Below, one piece after another: positions 5,633 through 18,265 of a DNA stretch of 24,655 nt. Origin of the DNA: a virus; IMG/VR virus record IMGVR_UViG_3300030117_004379, positions 1 to 24,655 of that record; one strand, 5' to 3'. The first letter of the stretch is position 1; each line of letters starts with the position of its first letter. The notes below the pieces were generated by a model, which saw nothing but the letters and a program-made list of their open reading frames with translations, was not told where the DNA came from and did no database searches. The position numbers were made by a program, and so were the translations under genes.

Positions 5633-5938
5633 TTAGAAACAAATTCTTTCTGCAGAATGAAGTTTACATTCTGGAGTGATAATGAATTTGTGTGGGTCAT
5701 CAATGTCTTTAGTCTTTAGATGATCTAATTGTTTGATAAGAATCTTGAGTGATTTCTTAGCAGCATCTAAATTTTCAAAACTGATTGTACCTCTACTTGT
5801 GTGGCAAGGTCCAATACAAGTGGAATGTTCTATGTAAATAGCTTCATTACCAGCATTTGGATGGCAATGATGAGATGTTTTTGAAACTTGGAAAGTTTGA
5901 TTTGTAGGAGTGTTTTGAAGCTCGTCTTCTAAGCTCAT
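5633..5938 (-). CDS. Cys/His-rich hypothetical protein, 101 aa
   Basis: ATG at 5938 overlaps the stop of the upstream gene (ATGA). The sequence carries HHCHPNAGNEA, then HSTCIGPCHTSRG, later PECKLH and a final C, a spacing that could hold a metal ion such as zinc. A basic helical middle follows (AAKKSLKILIKQLDHLKTK). I find no named zinc-finger family that fits. It is the last gene before the terminator at 5602-5625. Confidence 0.65.
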   Translation of the reverse strand: MSLEDELQNTPTNQTFQVSKTSHHCHPNAGNEAIYIEHSTCIGPCHTSRGTISFENLDAAKKSLKILIKQLDHLKTKDIDDPHKFIITPECKLHSAERICF

Positions 5939-6129
5939 TTAGATGCCTCCTGTTCTTTGATGTACTCATCAAGTTGTTGATTTTCACGAGCAGCTTCAGC
6001 AAGAACTTCAGCAGCATCATCTTTGGCATTTAAATCAATGCCTTGAAATTGCCCACAATCACCAGCATCAAGAGTAGAAGATTTTGGTTCAGGCATTTCA
6101 ACATCATTCCAATTAACTTGGTTCATCAT
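5935..6129 (-). CDS. Acidic helical hypothetical protein, 64 aa
   Basis: Two adjacent ATGs (6129 and 6126); stop at 5937-5935. The product is acidic (MNQVNWNDVEMPEPKSST, then DLNAKDDAAEVLAEAARENQ) and ends in a charged helix (LDEYIKEQEASK). It is the first gene downstream of the hammerhead ribozyme. If the ribozyme cleaves, this mRNA would begin with a 57-nt leader from position 6186. No ribosome-binding site is seen before the start. Function unknown. Confidence 0.65.
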   Translation of the reverse strand: MMNQVNWNDVEMPEPKSSTLDAGDCGQFQGIDLNAKDDAAEVLAEAARENQQLDEYIKEQEASK

Positions 6130-6154
6130 TAAAGTTGCGATTAAGTAATAACCT

Positions 6155-6209
6155 GTCTCATCAGGATGGGTCGGTTAGTTCCCATCGACTCCCCGAAGGG
6201 AGTTTCGAC
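6155..6209 (-). ncRNA. Type II hammerhead self-cleaving ribozyme
   Basis: Read on the minus strand the order is: stem II 3' strand GUC (6209-6207); GAA (6206-6204); A then stem III CUCCC-UUCG-GGGAG (from 6202) closed by A-U; the cleavage triplet GUC with C at 6187; stem I GAUGGG (6186-6181), 10-nt loop, CCCAUC (6170-6165); core CUGAUGA (6164-6158); stem II 5' strand GAC (6157-6155). Every conserved hammerhead core position is present, including the G10.1-C11.1 pair. The ends are open at stem II (type II). Stem II is only 3 bp but may extend by U-A pairs beyond a mismatch zone. Predicted cleavage is between 6187 and 6186. The element begins in the stop codon of the upstream gene. Confidence 0.9.
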
Positions 6210-6571
6210 TATTTAGCCATAGTCTTTACCTTTGGATTGGTATTAGATACTTCAGGTTTACCAAGTCTTTCAACAACTGCATATCTCAAACGCATTTCAG
6301 GCATTTTGAGTGTACGCATTGCTCCTTCTTGATCAACATAGTGATCTCTAATAGTGCGTCTATCGGCACTACCATGGAAGGCGACTTGTCTACCTTGAAG
6401 CTTGGCACCATCTTTATGAGCTTTATAAAGACCGTTCTTACTTCTAGCAAATACTTTGACGAGGCTATCATCAAGATCGCTAGAGATAATTTCGATCTCT
6501 AACCACTCATCTTCTCCGTTCTTAGCTAAACGAACGTAGCTGATGTTTCCAGTACCTTGTACGGTAAGCAT
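6209..6571 (-). CDS. Possible OB-fold single-strand DNA-binding protein, 120 aa
   Basis: I chose ATG 6571 (MLTVQGTGNISYVRLAKNGE) because the frame upstream lies in a hairpin-rich spacer and lacks another ATG. The strand order and the segment LQGRQVAFHGSADRRTIRDH, then YVDQEGAMRTL and RYAVVERLGK, parallel the SSB pattern (L.G..V.V.G....R.Y.D..G..R, then a strand and an L G end). In that reading it would coat ssDNA during phage replication. The C-terminal tail (NPKVKTMAK) is basic, unlike the acidic tip of bacterial SSB. The assignment is tentative. Its TAG stop begins the hammerhead element. Confidence 0.5.
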   Translation of the reverse strand: MLTVQGTGNISYVRLAKNGEDEWLEIEIISSDLDDSLVKVFARSKNGLYKAHKDGAKLQGRQVAFHGSADRRTIRDHYVDQEGAMRTLKMPEMRLRYAVVERLGKPEVSNTNPKVKTMAK

Positions 6572-6663: not shown

Positions 6664-6676
6664 AGGAGAGAATCAA

Positions 6677-7868: not shown

Positions 7869-8059
7869 TAGATAACCTCCTCATGCCATGATTTAATATC
7901 AGTCGTAGGACGAATAGCATCAGCTACTTTGAAACGTAGTGAGTTCCATTTACCTGATACTTTCTGTACTACTTTGGTATTATCAATGGCATTATCAAGC
8001 TTCTCAACAGCCTGGGAAGACTTATTGAGAACAGTGCTAACGGCTTTAATAAAAGACAT
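7868..8059 (-). CDS. Hypothetical protein, 63 aa
   Basis: ATG at 8059 is the preferred start; an in-frame GTG at 8074 lies inside a hairpin and is unlikely. The sequence starts with an amphipathic helix (MSFIKAVSTVLNKSSQAVEK), followed by LDNAIDNTKVVQKVSGKWNS and LRFKVADAIRPTTDIKSWHE. The start lies 11 bp after the 8070-8088 hairpin and has no ribosome-binding site. Family unknown. Confidence 0.6.
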   Translation of the reverse strand: MSFIKAVSTVLNKSSQAVEKLDNAIDNTKVVQKVSGKWNSLRFKVADAIRPTTDIKSWHEEVI

Positions 8060-8069
8060 AGTTAAAAAG

Positions 8070-8088
8070 ACCACTCTCGTTGAGTGGT
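8070..8088 (-). terminator. Hairpin plus U-run directly before a start codon
   Basis: On the minus strand, ACCACTC-AACGA-GAGTGGT forms a perfect 7-bp stem followed by CTTTTTAAC, the shape of an intrinsic terminator. The U-run ends about 5 bp before the ATG at 8059. That is an odd place for a terminator unless transcription is attenuated or the RNA is processed here. Confidence 0.6.
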
Positions 8089-8097
8089 AATACCAAG

Positions 8098-8136
8098 GGG
8101 AGGGAGTTGAACCCTCCTTTACAGCTAAAGCTGACC
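8098..8136 (-). repeat. 39-bp direct repeat, copy 1 (two-hairpin element)
   Basis: Identical to 8550-8588. On the minus strand it holds H1 CAGC-UUUA-GCUG (8133-8122) and, 4 nt further, H2 GGAGGG-UUCAACU-CCCUCC (8117-8099). In this copy the TAG stop of the 66-aa gene (8127-8125) lies in the first hairpin. H2 looks like a tRNA T-arm (5-bp stem, TTCAACT loop), but no tRNA body surrounds it. Confidence 0.7.
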
Positions 8137-8325
8137 CTGCTTGGTAGGATAACCAAACTCTTTACAGAAATCGAGATGGTTTTGATGTAGGTGTGTAGGC
8201 CAGTCATGAGCAAGACACTGGGTACGTGTAGCTTTCTCAATGAAATGACCAGCTACTAGGGGAGTACTTAAAAGTACGACCCCATAGGTAGCAACTGTTA
8301 AAACAGTTTTGTAGGAGGTAGGCAT
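8125..8325 (-). CDS. Small membrane or secreted protein, 66 aa
   Basis: ATG at 8325 overlaps the upstream TGA (TGATG); TAG at 8127-8125 sits inside a hairpin. A hydrophobic helix (YKTVLTVATYGVVLLSTPLV) is followed by a polar, His/Cys-containing domain (CLAHDWPTHLHQNHLDFCKE). The layout suits a signal-anchored protein with its C-terminal part outside the membrane, where the two Cys could pair. Function unknown. Confidence 0.6.
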   Translation of the reverse strand: MPTSYKTVLTVATYGVVLLSTPLVAGHFIEKATRTQCLAHDWPTHLHQNHLDFCKEFGYPTKQGQL

Positions 8326-8501
8326 CACTTACCCCCTTTAAGGTTGGACCAGAACTCTCTTGCACCTGTATAGGTCAAGATTGCACAGCGGTCATAACCT
8401 TTCTGACCTTTACGTACATGTTCTTCAACCATTACGCCATTGGGTGAACCAACGTGGAAGTGGTAATGAGCCTTCTGATTATGTAAGACGTAAGTAGTCA
8501 T
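8325..8501 (-). CDS. Hypothetical protein, 58 aa
   Basis: ATG at 8501 with a strong AGGAGGA site 6-8 bp upstream; TGA overlaps the next ATG. The sequence is strand-rich at the start (MTTYVLHNQKAHYHFHVGSP), then basic (EEHVRKGQKGYDRCAILTYT) with a short final helix (GAREFWSNLKGGK). No family recognised. Unlike most genes after structured spacers in this stretch, it has a clear ribosome-binding site. Confidence 0.65.
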   Translation of the reverse strand: MTTYVLHNQKAHYHFHVGSPNGVMVEEHVRKGQKGYDRCAILTYTGAREFWSNLKGGK

Positions 8502-8522
8502 AGGATTCCTCCTGTGTGCAGT

Positions 8523-8541
8523 GCCTATCTCTGCTGAAGGC
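8523..8541 (-). other. Third hairpin of the 8504-8596 spacer
   Basis: GCCT (8523-8526) and AGGC (8538-8541) flank an 11-nt loop. Together with the 39-bp repeat at 8550-8588 it mirrors the three-hairpin order at 8070-8136, although this third stem is shorter and lacks a U-run. Confidence 0.4.
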
Positions 8542-8549
8542 GATACCGA

Positions 8550-8588
8550 GGGAGGGAGTTGAACCCTCCTTTACAGCTAAAGCTGACC
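8550..8588 (-). repeat. 39-bp direct repeat, copy 2 (two-hairpin element)
   Basis: Identical to 8098-8136, 452 bp away. H1 is at 8585-8574 and H2 at 8569-8551. Here the element begins 9 bp after the TGA of the 71-aa gene, so it is fully intergenic. Perfect identity, at least in the part not constrained by coding, suggests a recent duplication or conserved RNA function. Confidence 0.7.
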
Positions 8589-8596
8589 AAACTCAG

Positions 8597-8812
8597 TTAA
8601 AAGGGAACAGGACCAAGCTCTTTAACAGTAAAGTTCTTAGTCTTATCTCTTGCTGTTTTCCATGCATACTTAATAGCGTCATCTCGATCCAAGAAAAAAC
8701 GAGCAGTATTTCGAGTATCAAATTGGACACCGTACCGTATGTCACGAGTATCATCATCCAATACAAAATGGAATGATGAACCATCAGGGAAACGCCAAGC
8801 CTTTACATACAT
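8597..8812 (-). CDS. Small alpha/beta hypothetical protein, 71 aa
   Basis: I chose ATG 8812 (MYVKAWRFPDGSSFHFVLDD) because GAGG lies about 10 bp upstream; the frame could extend to 8857 but would then overlap the preceding gene. Strands (DIRYGVQFDTRNTARFFLD) are followed by a helix (DDAIKYAWKTARDKTK) and a last strand. The layout is compatible with a small open-faced sheet. Function unknown. Confidence 0.65.
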   Translation of the reverse strand: MYVKAWRFPDGSSFHFVLDDDTRDIRYGVQFDTRNTARFFLDRDDAIKYAWKTARDKTKNFTVKELGPVPF

Positions 8813-9722: not shown

Positions 9723-12455
9723 ATGGCTGTCGCTGCTGCTGATTTTTACACATATGCTAGAGCTACTGGTACTCCATTACCTAAGACTAAGCAAGAAGAG
9801 GCACAATTAACGCCAGCTGTGGATAAGTGGAAAAGATCTAGAACAAAAGCACCAGAACGACAAGAAGATTCAAACGCAATTAGAAATATCCTTGGAACAG
9901 GAGCAGTTGCTGCAGGATTAGCAGGTGCAGCGGCATATGGTTATAGACGTGGATGGGGAGATACCCCTGGAAGACCAGGTGATGGTCCAACACCAAAAGG
10001 ATCACCTAGTCCTGTAACTCCTGGAGGTGATTTACCTTCTGATATTCCTGTTCGTTTATATAAAGACGATCAAAGAGGTATTCAAGTTGGTAAACAAGGA
10101 AACTTATATAGAACACAACCAGTTGATATAAAAGAACAACCTCAATTTCAGACTGAAGTTATAAATACAGCAGGTCAAGAAAGGGATTGGCGGATTGCTT
10201 ATATCAAAGGAAGAGAAGATGGCTTATCTGATGCAGATGCAGTTTTATATGCAAAAAGAACAGTAGGTCAGCCAATTAAAGAAGGTTACTATCCTGGTCC
10301 AGAGACAGAGCATAGACAACATCTATCAACATTAAAAACAAGTAGTCCTATTAATCCTCGTGCTTATATTGAAAAAACTGGAGCTATAGAGCCTACAGTA
10401 CAAGTAACTAAGACAGAAACACTTAATCCTTGGGATGCTCCTTTTGTTAGACAAGGAACAACCTCAGTAACTAATGTTGATACTCCTAAAGATCTTTTAG
10501 CTTTACCTGCTGCACCGACATATATAGATACAACTTCACCTGAACAGTTATATGTACAAAAGAAATTAGCAGAATTACAAACAGGTCCAAAAGCTTTGGA
10601 ATCCTTGGGTGATGAACAAATAGATGTAATACGTGGAACAGTAGCAAATTCTAAGTTATATCCTGATACGACAAGTGAAGTACGTCGTCAAGAAGCAAGG
10701 ATGAGAAGTAATGACAAGATTGCTAAAGAAGGTATTGATGAATTATTAGGAAGGGAATTTCTTGACGATACTTTAGTTGAACAACAGAAAACTATTGGTC
10801 CAGAACTAACTGAACAAACACTTGAATCTGCTAATAGTGGTTATGAGCAGATGGATGATGCATTCGATAGATCTGTTCAAAGAGATACAGATTCTATTGC
10901 TGTTGGTAGCCAAGCAGTCGAATTAGAAAAAACTCAACAGGCATTATTATCTCAAGCACAACTAGATAAAATTAATCGAGTAGGAATTACAGGTTCACGT
11001 ATTGCTGGTCCTAGTAATATTCAAAGAGGTTCGGTAAGACCTGGACAAAGAGAATTACCAATTGTTTATAGTACTCAAGAAAAAATTAATCCTACATTAA
11101 AAAGTGAACTTATTAATGAAGGGCCAACGTATACCTCGGTAGATGAACATTTAGCACGTTTTGAACCTGTACCAGAAAATGTTTCATTAGATCCTTTAGA
11201 AAAAGATCTTATAGAAGCTCGTGCCATGGCAGAGTTAAGTCAAAGAGAAGAAGAATTAATAAAAAGTGGATTAAGACCTGTTACTAAAGGAGGTCAACCA
11301 ACTATCAGATTTGATAATGCAAGAGCAGCTGGATGGACTAGTAAACAATACACTCCAATAAGTATCACTAGTAGTCGTTTTCAAGAAAATGCTTCAATGC
11401 CGAAAACATTAAGAGAAGCATTAGGACAAGAATCAGGAAGAGTATTTTATGAAGTAGATCAACGAGGAGAAATAATTCCAGAAACTGTACAAATACGTGG
11501 AGAACGTCCTGAAGTAATTAGACAACCAAAAAGTGGAGGTGGTAGAAAAACAGCAGAAGTACCTGGACCTAATCCTAATAGTGAATTAGATAGATTAATA
11601 AGAGAAGCACAACAAGGAACGGGTTCAGGATTATTAGATAGTAGAAAAATGAAAACAAGACAAACAAGATATATAGGAGAAGAAATAGAACCTGAAAGAC
11701 AATATTATGGATACAGAATTACTGATACAGGTGGTTTAGAAACTTCTCCTCGTATAGATACAGATGGAGTAGGTGATGCTGTAAGTGGAAGAACTATTGG
11801 TCCTTATGGTATTGAAAATCAAAATACATCACCAAAAGAATGGACAAATAAATCACATGCTATTACTTCTATTGCACCATCAGCCAGTCCACGTTCATGG
11901 ACACCAGCAGCAGGTACAGCAGGAAATGAAAATGTAAATATTGTAATTTCAGGAAGTAGAGATTATACAAATTATCCTGAATTTGTTCAAAAGACAGATC
12001 AGATAATTAGAGAAATGAATATACCTGCTAATAAAAAAATTACCATTGTTGAAGGAGGAGCAAAAGGAGCTGATAAATTAGCTGAACGTTATGCAAGAGA
12101 AAGAGGATATGGTCTTGTAGTAAAACCAGCTGATTGGAGTAAAGGAGGAACTTTAAAATATCCAGAATATGATAAATCTGCAGGACCTAGAAGAAATGAA
12201 GAAATGGCTGAAATGGGTGATGTAGGTATTGCATTCCCTGGAGGAAAAGGTACTAGTAATTTTGTAAAAACAATGGCTAGAAAAAAAGGTAAGCCTGTTT
12301 ATTACGCTAGTGAAATAACAGAAGCAACTCCCGAAAGTAAGAGAGCAATGGAAGCAAGCGAAGAGATTAGAAAGATTTATAGTAGTGGTAGACCTGATGC
12401 CCAACAGCAAGTACAGGCTTATATACAAGGTCTTCGTAAAGGACAGCAATTCTGA
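9723..12455 (+). CDS. 910-aa virion-type protein with C-terminal SLOG (DUF2493/YspA-like) domain
   Basis: ATG at 9723 opens the rightward module. The N-terminus has a short Gly/Ala-rich membrane-like segment (TGAVAAGLAGAAAYGYRRG, about residues 58-76). Roughly residues 80-730 are polar, low-complexity and probably mostly disordered or extended. Residues about 738-865 form a clear SLOG-superfamily domain of DUF2493/YspA type: VISGSRDY (G744, R746, D747), VEGGAKGADKLAERYARERG (from V776), GPRRNEEMAEMGD (from G821) and AFPGGKGTSN (from A837). SLOG domains bind nucleotides or nucleotide-like ligands. The fusion suggests a sensor or nucleotide-processing unit carried by a virion or ejected protein; that role is inferred. 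A short tail follows (QQQVQAYIQGLRKGQQF). Confidence 0.8.
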   Translation: MAVAAADFYTYARATGTPLPKTKQEEAQLTPAVDKWKRSRTKAPERQEDSNAIRNILGTGAVAAGLAGAAAYGYRRGWGDTPGRPGDGPTPKGSPSPVTPGGDLPSDIPVRLYKDDQRGIQVGKQGNLYRTQPVDIKEQPQFQTEVINTAGQERDWRIAYIKGREDGLSDADAVLYAKRTVGQPIKEGYYPGPETEHRQHLSTLKTSSPINPRAYIEKTGAIEPTVQVTKTETLNPWDAPFVRQGTTSVTNVDTPKDLLALPAAPTYIDTTSPEQLYVQKKLAELQTGPKALESLGDEQIDVIRGTVANSKLYPDTTSEVRRQEARMRSNDKIAKEGIDELLGREFLDDTLVEQQKTIGPELTEQTLESANSGYEQMDDAFDRSVQRDTDSIAVGSQAVELEKTQQALLSQAQLDKINRVGITGSRIAGPSNIQRGSVRPGQRELPIVYSTQEKINPTLKSELINEGPTYTSVDEHLARFEPVPENVSLDPLEKDLIEARAMAELSQREEELIKSGLRPVTKGGQPTIRFDNARAAGWTSKQYTPISITSSRFQENASMPKTLREALGQESGRVFYEVDQRGEIIPETVQIRGERPEVIRQPKSGGGRKTAEVPGPNPNSELDRLIREAQQGTGSGLLDSRKMKTRQTRYIGEEIEPERQYYGYRITDTGGLETSPRIDTDGVGDAVSGRTIGPYGIENQNTSPKEWTNKSHAITSIAPSASPRSWTPAAGTAGNENVNIVISGSRDYTNYPEFVQKTDQIIREMNIPANKKITIVEGGAKGADKLAERYARERGYGLVVKPADWSKGGTLKYPEYDKSAGPRRNEEMAEMGDVGIAFPGGKGTSNFVKTMARKKGKPVYYASEITEATPESKRAMEASEEIRKIYSSGRPDAQQQVQAYIQGLRKGQQF

Positions 12456-16771: not shown

Positions 16772-18265
16772 ATGACTTGTTCACTTACACATCTAAATGT
16801 TCTTTTGGCTGATGGGGAAACTAAACCTATCGGTCATTTAAAAGTAGGCGATAAAGTCGATACATTACATCAAGAAAGTTTTAAGCGTGGTAAATATAAA
16901 ATCCTTTCTATTAAGAAGGAAAAGTCTAAGTTACTTGCTTTAGATTTTGAAGGAGAAAAGATTGAATGTTATCCTAACCATCGCTTCTATTGTGAAAACA
17001 AACGTAAGTGGATTAAGGCTAAAGATTTAAACAGAGGAACTAAAGTACTTGGTTTAGATGGATATATTGAATTTACTGATCGTAAAAAGATTGGTGAAGG
17101 TGAGGTTATTCATTTAGATGTAGAAGGAGCACATACCTATGTTTCAGGTAAAGTTCTTTCTCATAACAAAGGTAACGTTACATATAATCCACCACCTCCA
17201 CCACCACCTGATAAGACTTTTGAAAACTATTTAAAGTATCAAAGGGAAAGAGATGAAGATGCAGAGTATAGAGATTGGCTAGGTGGTATTCAAAAGTATA
17301 AAGGTCAGAAAGGAAAACAAACTTCTGGTAGATCTGGATGGGATGCACATAAAGCAAGTGTACAAAATAAATTAAGTAAGAATTTAATTAGCTTTACACA
17401 AGCTGAAAAAGAATTAAAGGATTACGCTACTGATTACAACTTAGCTGCTGGAAGTATTAATTATTCTGGTGGTGATGATCCACGTCAGATGTGGGATCGT
17501 TATAAAGATAAAGATGCTCCTGAAGGTGGATGGACAACTTCTCCAACTTATGAAACACCAGATAGATGGAAAAATTGGAGTGTTAATAAAGCTTTAGGTG
17601 AGTTAGGTACTTTCTATCATGGTGGTGCTGCTACAACAGGTGGTACGACTGGTGGTACGACTGGTGGTACGACTGGAGGAACGACAGGAGGAACAACTGG
17701 TGGTGGTTTATTAGGACAAAGAAGAGATACAAATATCAAAGCAGCCTATGAAGAAATCTTAGGTCGTTCTGGTACTGCTGATGAAATAGCTAAAGCTAAA
17801 GAAAGATTTGGTTCTGGCTATTATTCTGATATTGATAGTTTTAAAACAGGTCTTACTTCAAGTTCTGAGTACAAGGATAAATTCCAACGTAGTTATTTAG
17901 AAAACTACTACGATACGATGTATGGCAAAGAGGAAAGAGATGCCTCTGGAGCACGTACAGGTACACGTACATTTAACTTTGATAAATCACTACTGCCAAG
18001 TTACTCAGGTGACTTAGAAGGTGATACAGGCGTTAAGATGCCTGATTGGAAAGATCAATATAAAGGTACTCCTGCAGAGATTGACTTTGCAATGGATAAC
18101 ATACGTGAATCACGTAAGTTCCTCTATAGTGCTGGCTTAACTAACTTACAAGGAAGTATTGATAAAGAAGTTCAAAAACTTAAGAACGAAGGTGGTAAGG
18201 AAATTACTAGGATTGGTAAAGAAGGCGATATGTATGCAAGTGTCGTTAACGCATTTAATTTCTAG
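16772..18265 (+). CDS. Protein with N-terminal Hint (intein-like) domain and a DUF4214-like segment, 497 aa
   Basis: ATG at 16772, 2 bp after the previous gene. Residues 3-132 form a Hint domain: C3 with SLTHLNVLLADG..IGHLKVGD.V, a block-B-like CYPNHRF (H70) and a terminal VLSHN (H131, N132). C3 and N132 are the catalytic positions of inteins and Hedgehog/BIL domains. The residue after N132 is Lys, not Cys/Ser/Thr, and only two residues precede C3, so splicing is unlikely but cleavage at N132 is possible. Downstream come seven prolines, a Thr/Gly repeat (about residues 289-312) and a segment like DUF4214 (AAYEEILGRSGTADEIAKAK, then GLTSSSEYKDKF). It is probably a virion surface or tail protein released or matured by the Hint domain. 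Confidence 0.8.
   Translation: MTCSLTHLNVLLADGETKPIGHLKVGDKVDTLHQESFKRGKYKILSIKKEKSKLLALDFEGEKIECYPNHRFYCENKRKWIKAKDLNRGTKVLGLDGYIEFTDRKKIGEGEVIHLDVEGAHTYVSGKVLSHNKGNVTYNPPPPPPPDKTFENYLKYQRERDEDAEYRDWLGGIQKYKGQKGKQTSGRSGWDAHKASVQNKLSKNLISFTQAEKELKDYATDYNLAAGSINYSGGDDPRQMWDRYKDKDAPEGGWTTSPTYETPDRWKNWSVNKALGELGTFYHGGAATTGGTTGGTTGGTTGGTTGGTTGGGLLGQRRDTNIKAAYEEILGRSGTADEIAKAKERFGSGYYSDIDSFKTGLTSSSEYKDKFQRSYLENYYDTMYGKEERDASGARTGTRTFNFDKSLLPSYSGDLEGDTGVKMPDWKDQYKGTPAEIDFAMDNIRESRKFLYSAGLTNLQGSIDKEVQKLKNEGGKEITRIGKEGDMYASVVNAFNF
17636..17707 (+). repeat. 12-bp tandem repeat (six copies) encoding Thr-Gly-Gly-Thr
   Basis: Six in-frame 12-bp units of the type ACTGGTGGTACG lie in the 16772 gene. Three are identical or nearly so; the others differ at third positions or by single bases. 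They encode a flexible TGGT linker and can expand or contract without shifting frame. Confidence 0.85.

Follow-up and report, generated by a model that had tools for sequence, protein, structure and literature searches.

A type II hammerhead ribozyme overlapping the stop codon of an SSB-like gene in S-EIV1-like phages

Perreault et al. described type II hammerhead ribozymes in 2011, including the pseudoknot that loop I forms with the tail; they also reported hammerheads next to prophage genes and proposed that phage hammerheads have a role in mRNA processing (PMC3088659). Related type II ribozymes cleave in vitro, and in one that was dissected the pseudoknot was required for speed (PMC3088659). 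Transcripts carrying several hammerheads were likewise cleaved in vitro, and an Agrobacterium prophage trio was cleaved in E. coli (PMC3088659). In haloviruses HF1/HF2, according to the same authors, a mapped 5′ end fits hammerhead cleavage (PMC3088659). What prokaryotic hammerheads do has been named among the field's unanswered questions (PMC6155905).

The DNA analysed here (the window) is a virus contig of 24,655 bases; its terminase and the one of Synechococcus phage S-EIV1 share 80% identity. The minus-strand letters CTAAATAGTCGAAACTCCCTTCGGGGAGTCGATGGGAACTAACCGACCCATCCTGATGAGACAGGTTATTACTTAATCGCAACTTTAATGATG, read as RNA, form a full type II hammerhead between two leftward genes. The features of this junction are the following:

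6209 to 6571, minus strand: upstream SSB-like gene, ATG at 6571
6149 to 6209, minus strand: type II hammerhead ribozyme including its 3′ pseudoknot strand (predicted structure, Rfam match, nine-sequence alignment)
6209, minus strand: G, first base of stem II and final G of the upstream TAG stop (6211-6209)
6209-6207 with 6157-6155, minus strand: stem II, open, GUC with GAC; the middle pair covaries UA/AU/GC
6203 to 6206, minus strand: core GAAA (G12 A13 A14 A15.1), identical in 9/9 aligned members
6202-6198 with 6193-6189, minus strand: stem III hairpin, CUCCC with GGGAG around a UUCG loop; invariant in the lineage, varying in other phages
6186 to 6188, minus strand: U16.1-C17 and the predicted cleavage site between 6187 (C17) and 6186, placed from hammerhead numbering
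6186-6181 with 6170-6165, minus strand: stem I, GAUGGG with CCCAUC, loop I at 6180-6171; three pairs changed on both sides
6158 to 6164, minus strand: core CUGAUGA (C3-A9), position 7 being U, C or A in relatives
6177-6173 with 6153-6149, minus strand: pseudoknot of UAACC in loop I with GGUUA in the 3′ tail; covaries as UAACC/GGUUA and UGACC/GGUCA
5935 to 6126, minus strand: downstream gene, 63 amino acids, of no family, differing between relatives

Reading of the minus strand confirmed what an earlier note on this DNA had stated, namely that the core elements are complete and correctly ordered, at the coordinates that it gave, and that the element begins inside the TAG stop of the upstream gene. 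G12-A13-A14 correspond to 6206-6204, and A15.1 (6203) pairs with U16.1 (6188). The element has the CUGANGA ... GAAA core, U16.1-H17 ahead of stem I, loops closing stems I and III, and an open stem II (Rfam alignment, model positions 1-66). The extent proposed previously, 6155-6209, is right for the hammerhead as such but overlooked the 5-bp pseudoknot, with which the element reaches 6149. The leader predicted for the downstream gene is 57 nt up to an ATG at 6129, or 60 nt to the ATG at 6126, the start conserved in relatives.

The Rfam type II model RF02276 matched at 32.0 bits over its full length, with E-values of 8.7e-5 (401 nt against all of Rfam) and 1.3e-6 (across the whole record). Its gathering score is 37 bits, which is a database inclusion rule and not a defining property of hammerheads, and at the gathering score Rfam gave no match in the window or in sampled relatives. 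The covariance-model hit above threshold that the earlier note had put forward as a check was thus not obtained (32.0 versus 37 bits), the E-value being significant nonetheless. Because the score lies below the curated cut-off, a standard scan comes back empty and annotation pipelines miss the element; when Rfam was run with 66 kb at once, the filters lost the hammerhead even at E 3. With a lenient motif parser, 200 copies of the window generated by a first-order Markov model gave 1 match. Fetched loci totalling 1.58 Mb, many of them themselves retrieved by hammerhead patterns, gave 260 matches versus 0 once their sequence was reversed. Minimum-energy folding of the strand alone produced no hammerhead (z -0.91), and plain folding does not single the element out. 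The hammerhead secondary structure lies at -18.6 kcal/mol versus -19.3 for the minimum-energy fold, 0.7 apart with the pseudoknot uncounted; a hairpin, CCUG-AUGAGA-CAGG, can compete with the hammerhead core.

Using protein and pattern searches, we found ten related viral contigs with the element (L001-L006, L012, L035, L048 and L159). Terminase identity is 67% for L035 and L048 and 89% for L159; the SSB-like gene of L012 is 31-34% identical in the alignment. In an alignment of nine sequences all 20 pairs are kept, with 180/180 pair cells standard. Five pairs have changed on both sides, three in stem I, one in stem II and one among the five pairs of the pseudoknot, compared to 0 pairs when partners were slid by 1-3 columns. 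Compensatory changes extend over three helices: stems I and II covary within the nine members, and stem III, invariant among them, differs in sequence in the wider motif set. The sole variable core position is N7 (U, C or A), which hammerheads leave free. The claim of a complete sense-strand type II hammerhead between two genes is therefore upheld, by the covariation, by core variation limited to N7 and by the family-specific pseudoknot.

A model of the lineage found exactly one copy in each of the ten records; S-EIV1 has no hammerhead by this model, by the parser or by Rfam. Such a hammerhead is also absent from 18/18 further S-EIV1-like contigs, many of them incomplete. Most S-EIV1-like phages appear to lack it, and the ribozyme is therefore not essential to the lineage. 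A search of GenBank phages for near matches to the element returned nothing beyond short pieces. The genes flanking the constant ribozyme vary, with two SSB types on its upstream side and five or more unrelated genes on its downstream side.

Pfam gave no match for the SSB-like gene of the window, PF00436 included. In the same slot, the L005 protein matches Pfam SSB (PF00436) at 29.9 bits, above the cut-off, and that of L006 falls just below it. The structural model of the SSB-like protein, built from five sequences, is a beta-rich OB fold (pLDDT 70.8), for which the top structural matches are mostly SSB, for example 4dam (Z 9.2, 92 residues, 2.9 A). The window's protein ends in KTMAK, without an acidic IPF tip, and homologues in L255 and L257 end in EEIPF. 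The label 'SSB-like' of the earlier note is fair, since the OB fold is nearest to SSBs, two homologues carry EEIPF, and Pfam SSB is found in the same slot of these relatives. A longer open frame for this gene, starting with TTG at 6676, is probably wrong. No promoter could be called, and a candidate terminator at 5625-5602 was rejected as it is not conserved in relatives.

Might the fold be irrelevant for cleavage, and persist as a relic or as a hairpin shielding the SSB-like mRNA at its 3′ end? Stem III and its UUCG loop are indeed invariant in the lineage and most relatives manage without the ribozyme. However, bases required for catalysis only (CUGANGA, GAAA, C17) are invariant as well, and stem I, stem II and the pseudoknot carry compensating pair changes; a plain hairpin would need none of these, and we regard this explanation as unlikely. 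Another explanation concerns the surroundings of the ribozyme. About 20 nt ahead of it and 25 nt behind it are common to contigs with different SSB types and downstream genes, as would be expected if the element were kept mainly as a recombination joint, a short homology allowing exchange of the genes on either side. Such a joint requires sequence identity and not paired compensatory changes, and exchange could be a side effect alongside cleavage, so that we give a joint as the main function very little credence.

Regulated cleavage is also conceivable, controlled for instance by a ligand or by the CCUG/CAGG hairpin that competes with the core; the element would then be a switch and not a constant cutter. 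The hairpin is possible in 9/9 lineage members and belongs to the predicted minimum-energy fold, but CAG occurs at the corresponding place in only 79/222 type II motifs and no aptamer-like domain is attached, which makes regulation improbable.

The explanation that we favour, and consider very probable, is that a type II hammerhead with a pseudoknot cuts a leftward polycistronic early transcript between the two genes. We infer from gene order that the SSB-like and the downstream gene share one transcript. A single cut per RNA, between C6187 and G6186, would detach the SSB-like message from the genes that follow. This message would then end 22 nt past its stop, with the very stable UUCG stem III hairpin and a 2′,3′-cyclic phosphate at its 3′ end, and the downstream mRNA would start with a 5′-OH directly at the stem I hairpin. 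Both types of end would be expected to resist the usual exonuclease and 5′-end-dependent decay routes, and the likely use of the cut would therefore be to let the two mRNAs differ in amount, in the manner of the RNase III sites of T7. Because stem II includes bases of the stop codon, a ribosome that terminates there should sit over the ribozyme, and cleavage would probably be confined to gaps between ribosomes.

A wider survey of viral contigs with pattern scans and the parser gave 222 distinct type II motifs in 110 loci. In 161/222 motifs an open frame of 50 codons or more has its stop codon ending 0-8 nt before G12, compared to 31/1110 random same-strand positions and 16/222 antisense positions, in a sample that is biased by the search patterns and in compact phage genomes, which alone would favour tight placement. 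The start codon of an open frame lies behind the motif in 212, mostly 20-50 nt past C3. This placing rule, stop codon, hammerhead, start codon, helps to find more of them, including those below the Rfam cut-off. The flanking genes are diverse, 190 upstream proteins forming 164 clusters. The idea that phage hammerheads generally lie behind SSB genes was unsupported: 150 upstream proteins belong to many families, none dominant, and two are Gp2.5-like.

Several variants were seen along the way. In some individual viral loci (L062, L089, L116, L149 and others), six to eight type II hammerheads are interspersed among consecutive genes. An extra base between A9 and stem II is present in L012 (5301-5227, minus strand), L083, L117, L158, L163, L169 and L171, and in the L075 hammerhead CCGAUGA replaces CUGAUGA. 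The stem III hairpin CUCCCUUCGGGGAG recurs in type I hammerheads of other viral contigs, there too directly ahead of genes (L013, L041, L042, L043, L049, L050 and others).

In relatives that have an SSB gene in the slot and no hammerhead, another folded RNA starts at the SSB stop. RNA B lies behind the SSB gene in L254 (1385 onward), L255, L256 and L257 (minus strand in these three) and L261, and its SSB-slot copies fold with z-scores between -4.3 and -6.3 (four distinct sequences folded); it has no Rfam match. One of its strands can pair with either of two partners, and it is seen behind SSB-like and other genes, L260 also carrying it near 2470 and 2815. Only four contigs were matched when the second junction RNA was sought with a strict pattern.

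In two contigs with terminases that share 95-96% identity with that of the window (G011 and G012; L263 1908-2014, L264 1361-1255), the SSB slot is filled by a variant of another structured RNA, RNA A (21.6 bits). RNA A has a P1 helix often enclosing the stop codon, a T-loop hairpin that abuts P1 and a further hairpin, the loop of which can pair with the tail as a pseudoknot. Its copies include:

8498 to 8597, minus strand: RNA A copy 1 of the window, 75.2 bits with model R2, starting at the stop of the upstream gene; in the model alignment
8045 to 8145, minus strand: RNA A copy 2 of the window, 74.6 bits with model R2; in the model alignment
Elsewhere: L001 1596-2436; L005 2772-3732; L260 787-2032; S-EIV1 (L007) 43790-43702 and 43500-43408

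Among 22 copies of RNA A, 12/20 pairs have changed on both sides, versus 0-5 when the partners were slid, and 58 cells show double changes versus 20 in shuffles. Weakest among the helices is the pseudoknot, where 75% of the cells are paired; the existence of two tail registers accounts for part of this. Model R2 gave 42 matches in 19 sources, including two in the window and two in S-EIV1, and matched 12/17 records; its E-values hold by construction for sequences in its alignment, S-EIV1, L012 and L172 being outside it. Rfam returned nothing credible for the RNAs replacing the hammerhead, and no family fits RNA A. There are no tRNA genes at these junctions in the window. Under strict tests, no match to an exact 27-base pattern of RNA A turned up in 84,980 prokaryote genomes, and blastn against GenBank phages gave nothing meaningful. 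RNA A might act as a stabilising structure, as a ribozyme or as a tRNA-like substrate of an RNase.

At one junction of one phage lineage, the hammerhead and two unnamed RNAs thus occur in place of each other. Our hypothesis is that the three do the same job there. That interchangeable, stop-overlapping junction RNAs divide the early transcripts of S-EIV1-like phages, the hammerhead being one of them and RNA A a so far undescribed self-cleaving RNA or a tRNA-like substrate for host RNases, is a tentative extension that we think possible but not likely. If the RNAs do substitute for each other, cutting or protection of mRNA at the junction would be what selection keeps, and the replacing RNAs would be candidates for new ribozymes or processing signals. 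The lineage includes an isolated phage, S-EIV1 (host Synechococcus). The presence of other folded RNAs at the same place in close relatives makes the cutting of phage messages testable.

Other features of the window were recorded. Two more gaps between leftward genes, 6677-6572 and 7350-7271 (minus strand), are structured (z about -3.3 and -3.2), and the latter ends in CTTGTTCTATACCTACTTGTTCTATG, conserved in L001, L003, L005 and L006. The protein encoded at 16772-18265 (plus strand) has a Hint domain at its start (PF07591, E 9e-8). An intein is present in the S-EIV1 terminase (L008 4080-6617) and absent from that of the window. A large protein encoded at 9723-12455 (plus strand), adjoining packaging and structural genes, contains a YspA-like SLOG domain at residues about 739-807 (PF10686, E 2.8e-13).

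Phage T7 offers a protein-based parallel: its polycistronic RNA is cut at RNase III sites between genes, which leaves a hairpin at the upstream 3′ end. There a host protein cuts, whereas here self-cleavage would be expected to yield a cyclic phosphate and a 5′-OH. With described type II hammerheads and RF02276, the window's element shares the order of elements, the open stem II (2-4 pairs), the invariant core and the GUC site, and also the pseudoknot of loop I with the tail behind stem II and the adjoining phage genes (PMC3088659). It differs from them in being present as one copy per contig, in the S-EIV1 group, in starting in the stop of an SSB-like gene and in its score below the cut-off. 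As in the prophage clusters (ardA of Agrobacterium and others) and in haloviruses HF1/HF2, it lies in phage mRNA at a gene junction, and cutting of a long transcript is proposed (PMC3088659). The HF1/HF2 hammerhead precedes a helicase gene, and a mapped 5′ end is at most 3 nt from its site; this and the prophage hammerheads belong to other phages and other genes. The earlier view that no such arrangement had been described has to be narrowed, as hammerheads flanking phage genes are known (PMC3088659, PMC6155905), and stands for this lineage, which is new. The window's ribozyme is an ordinary molecule and a new case; what is new is its patchy occurrence in S-EIV1-like phages and the presence of other structured RNAs in the same slot of relatives.
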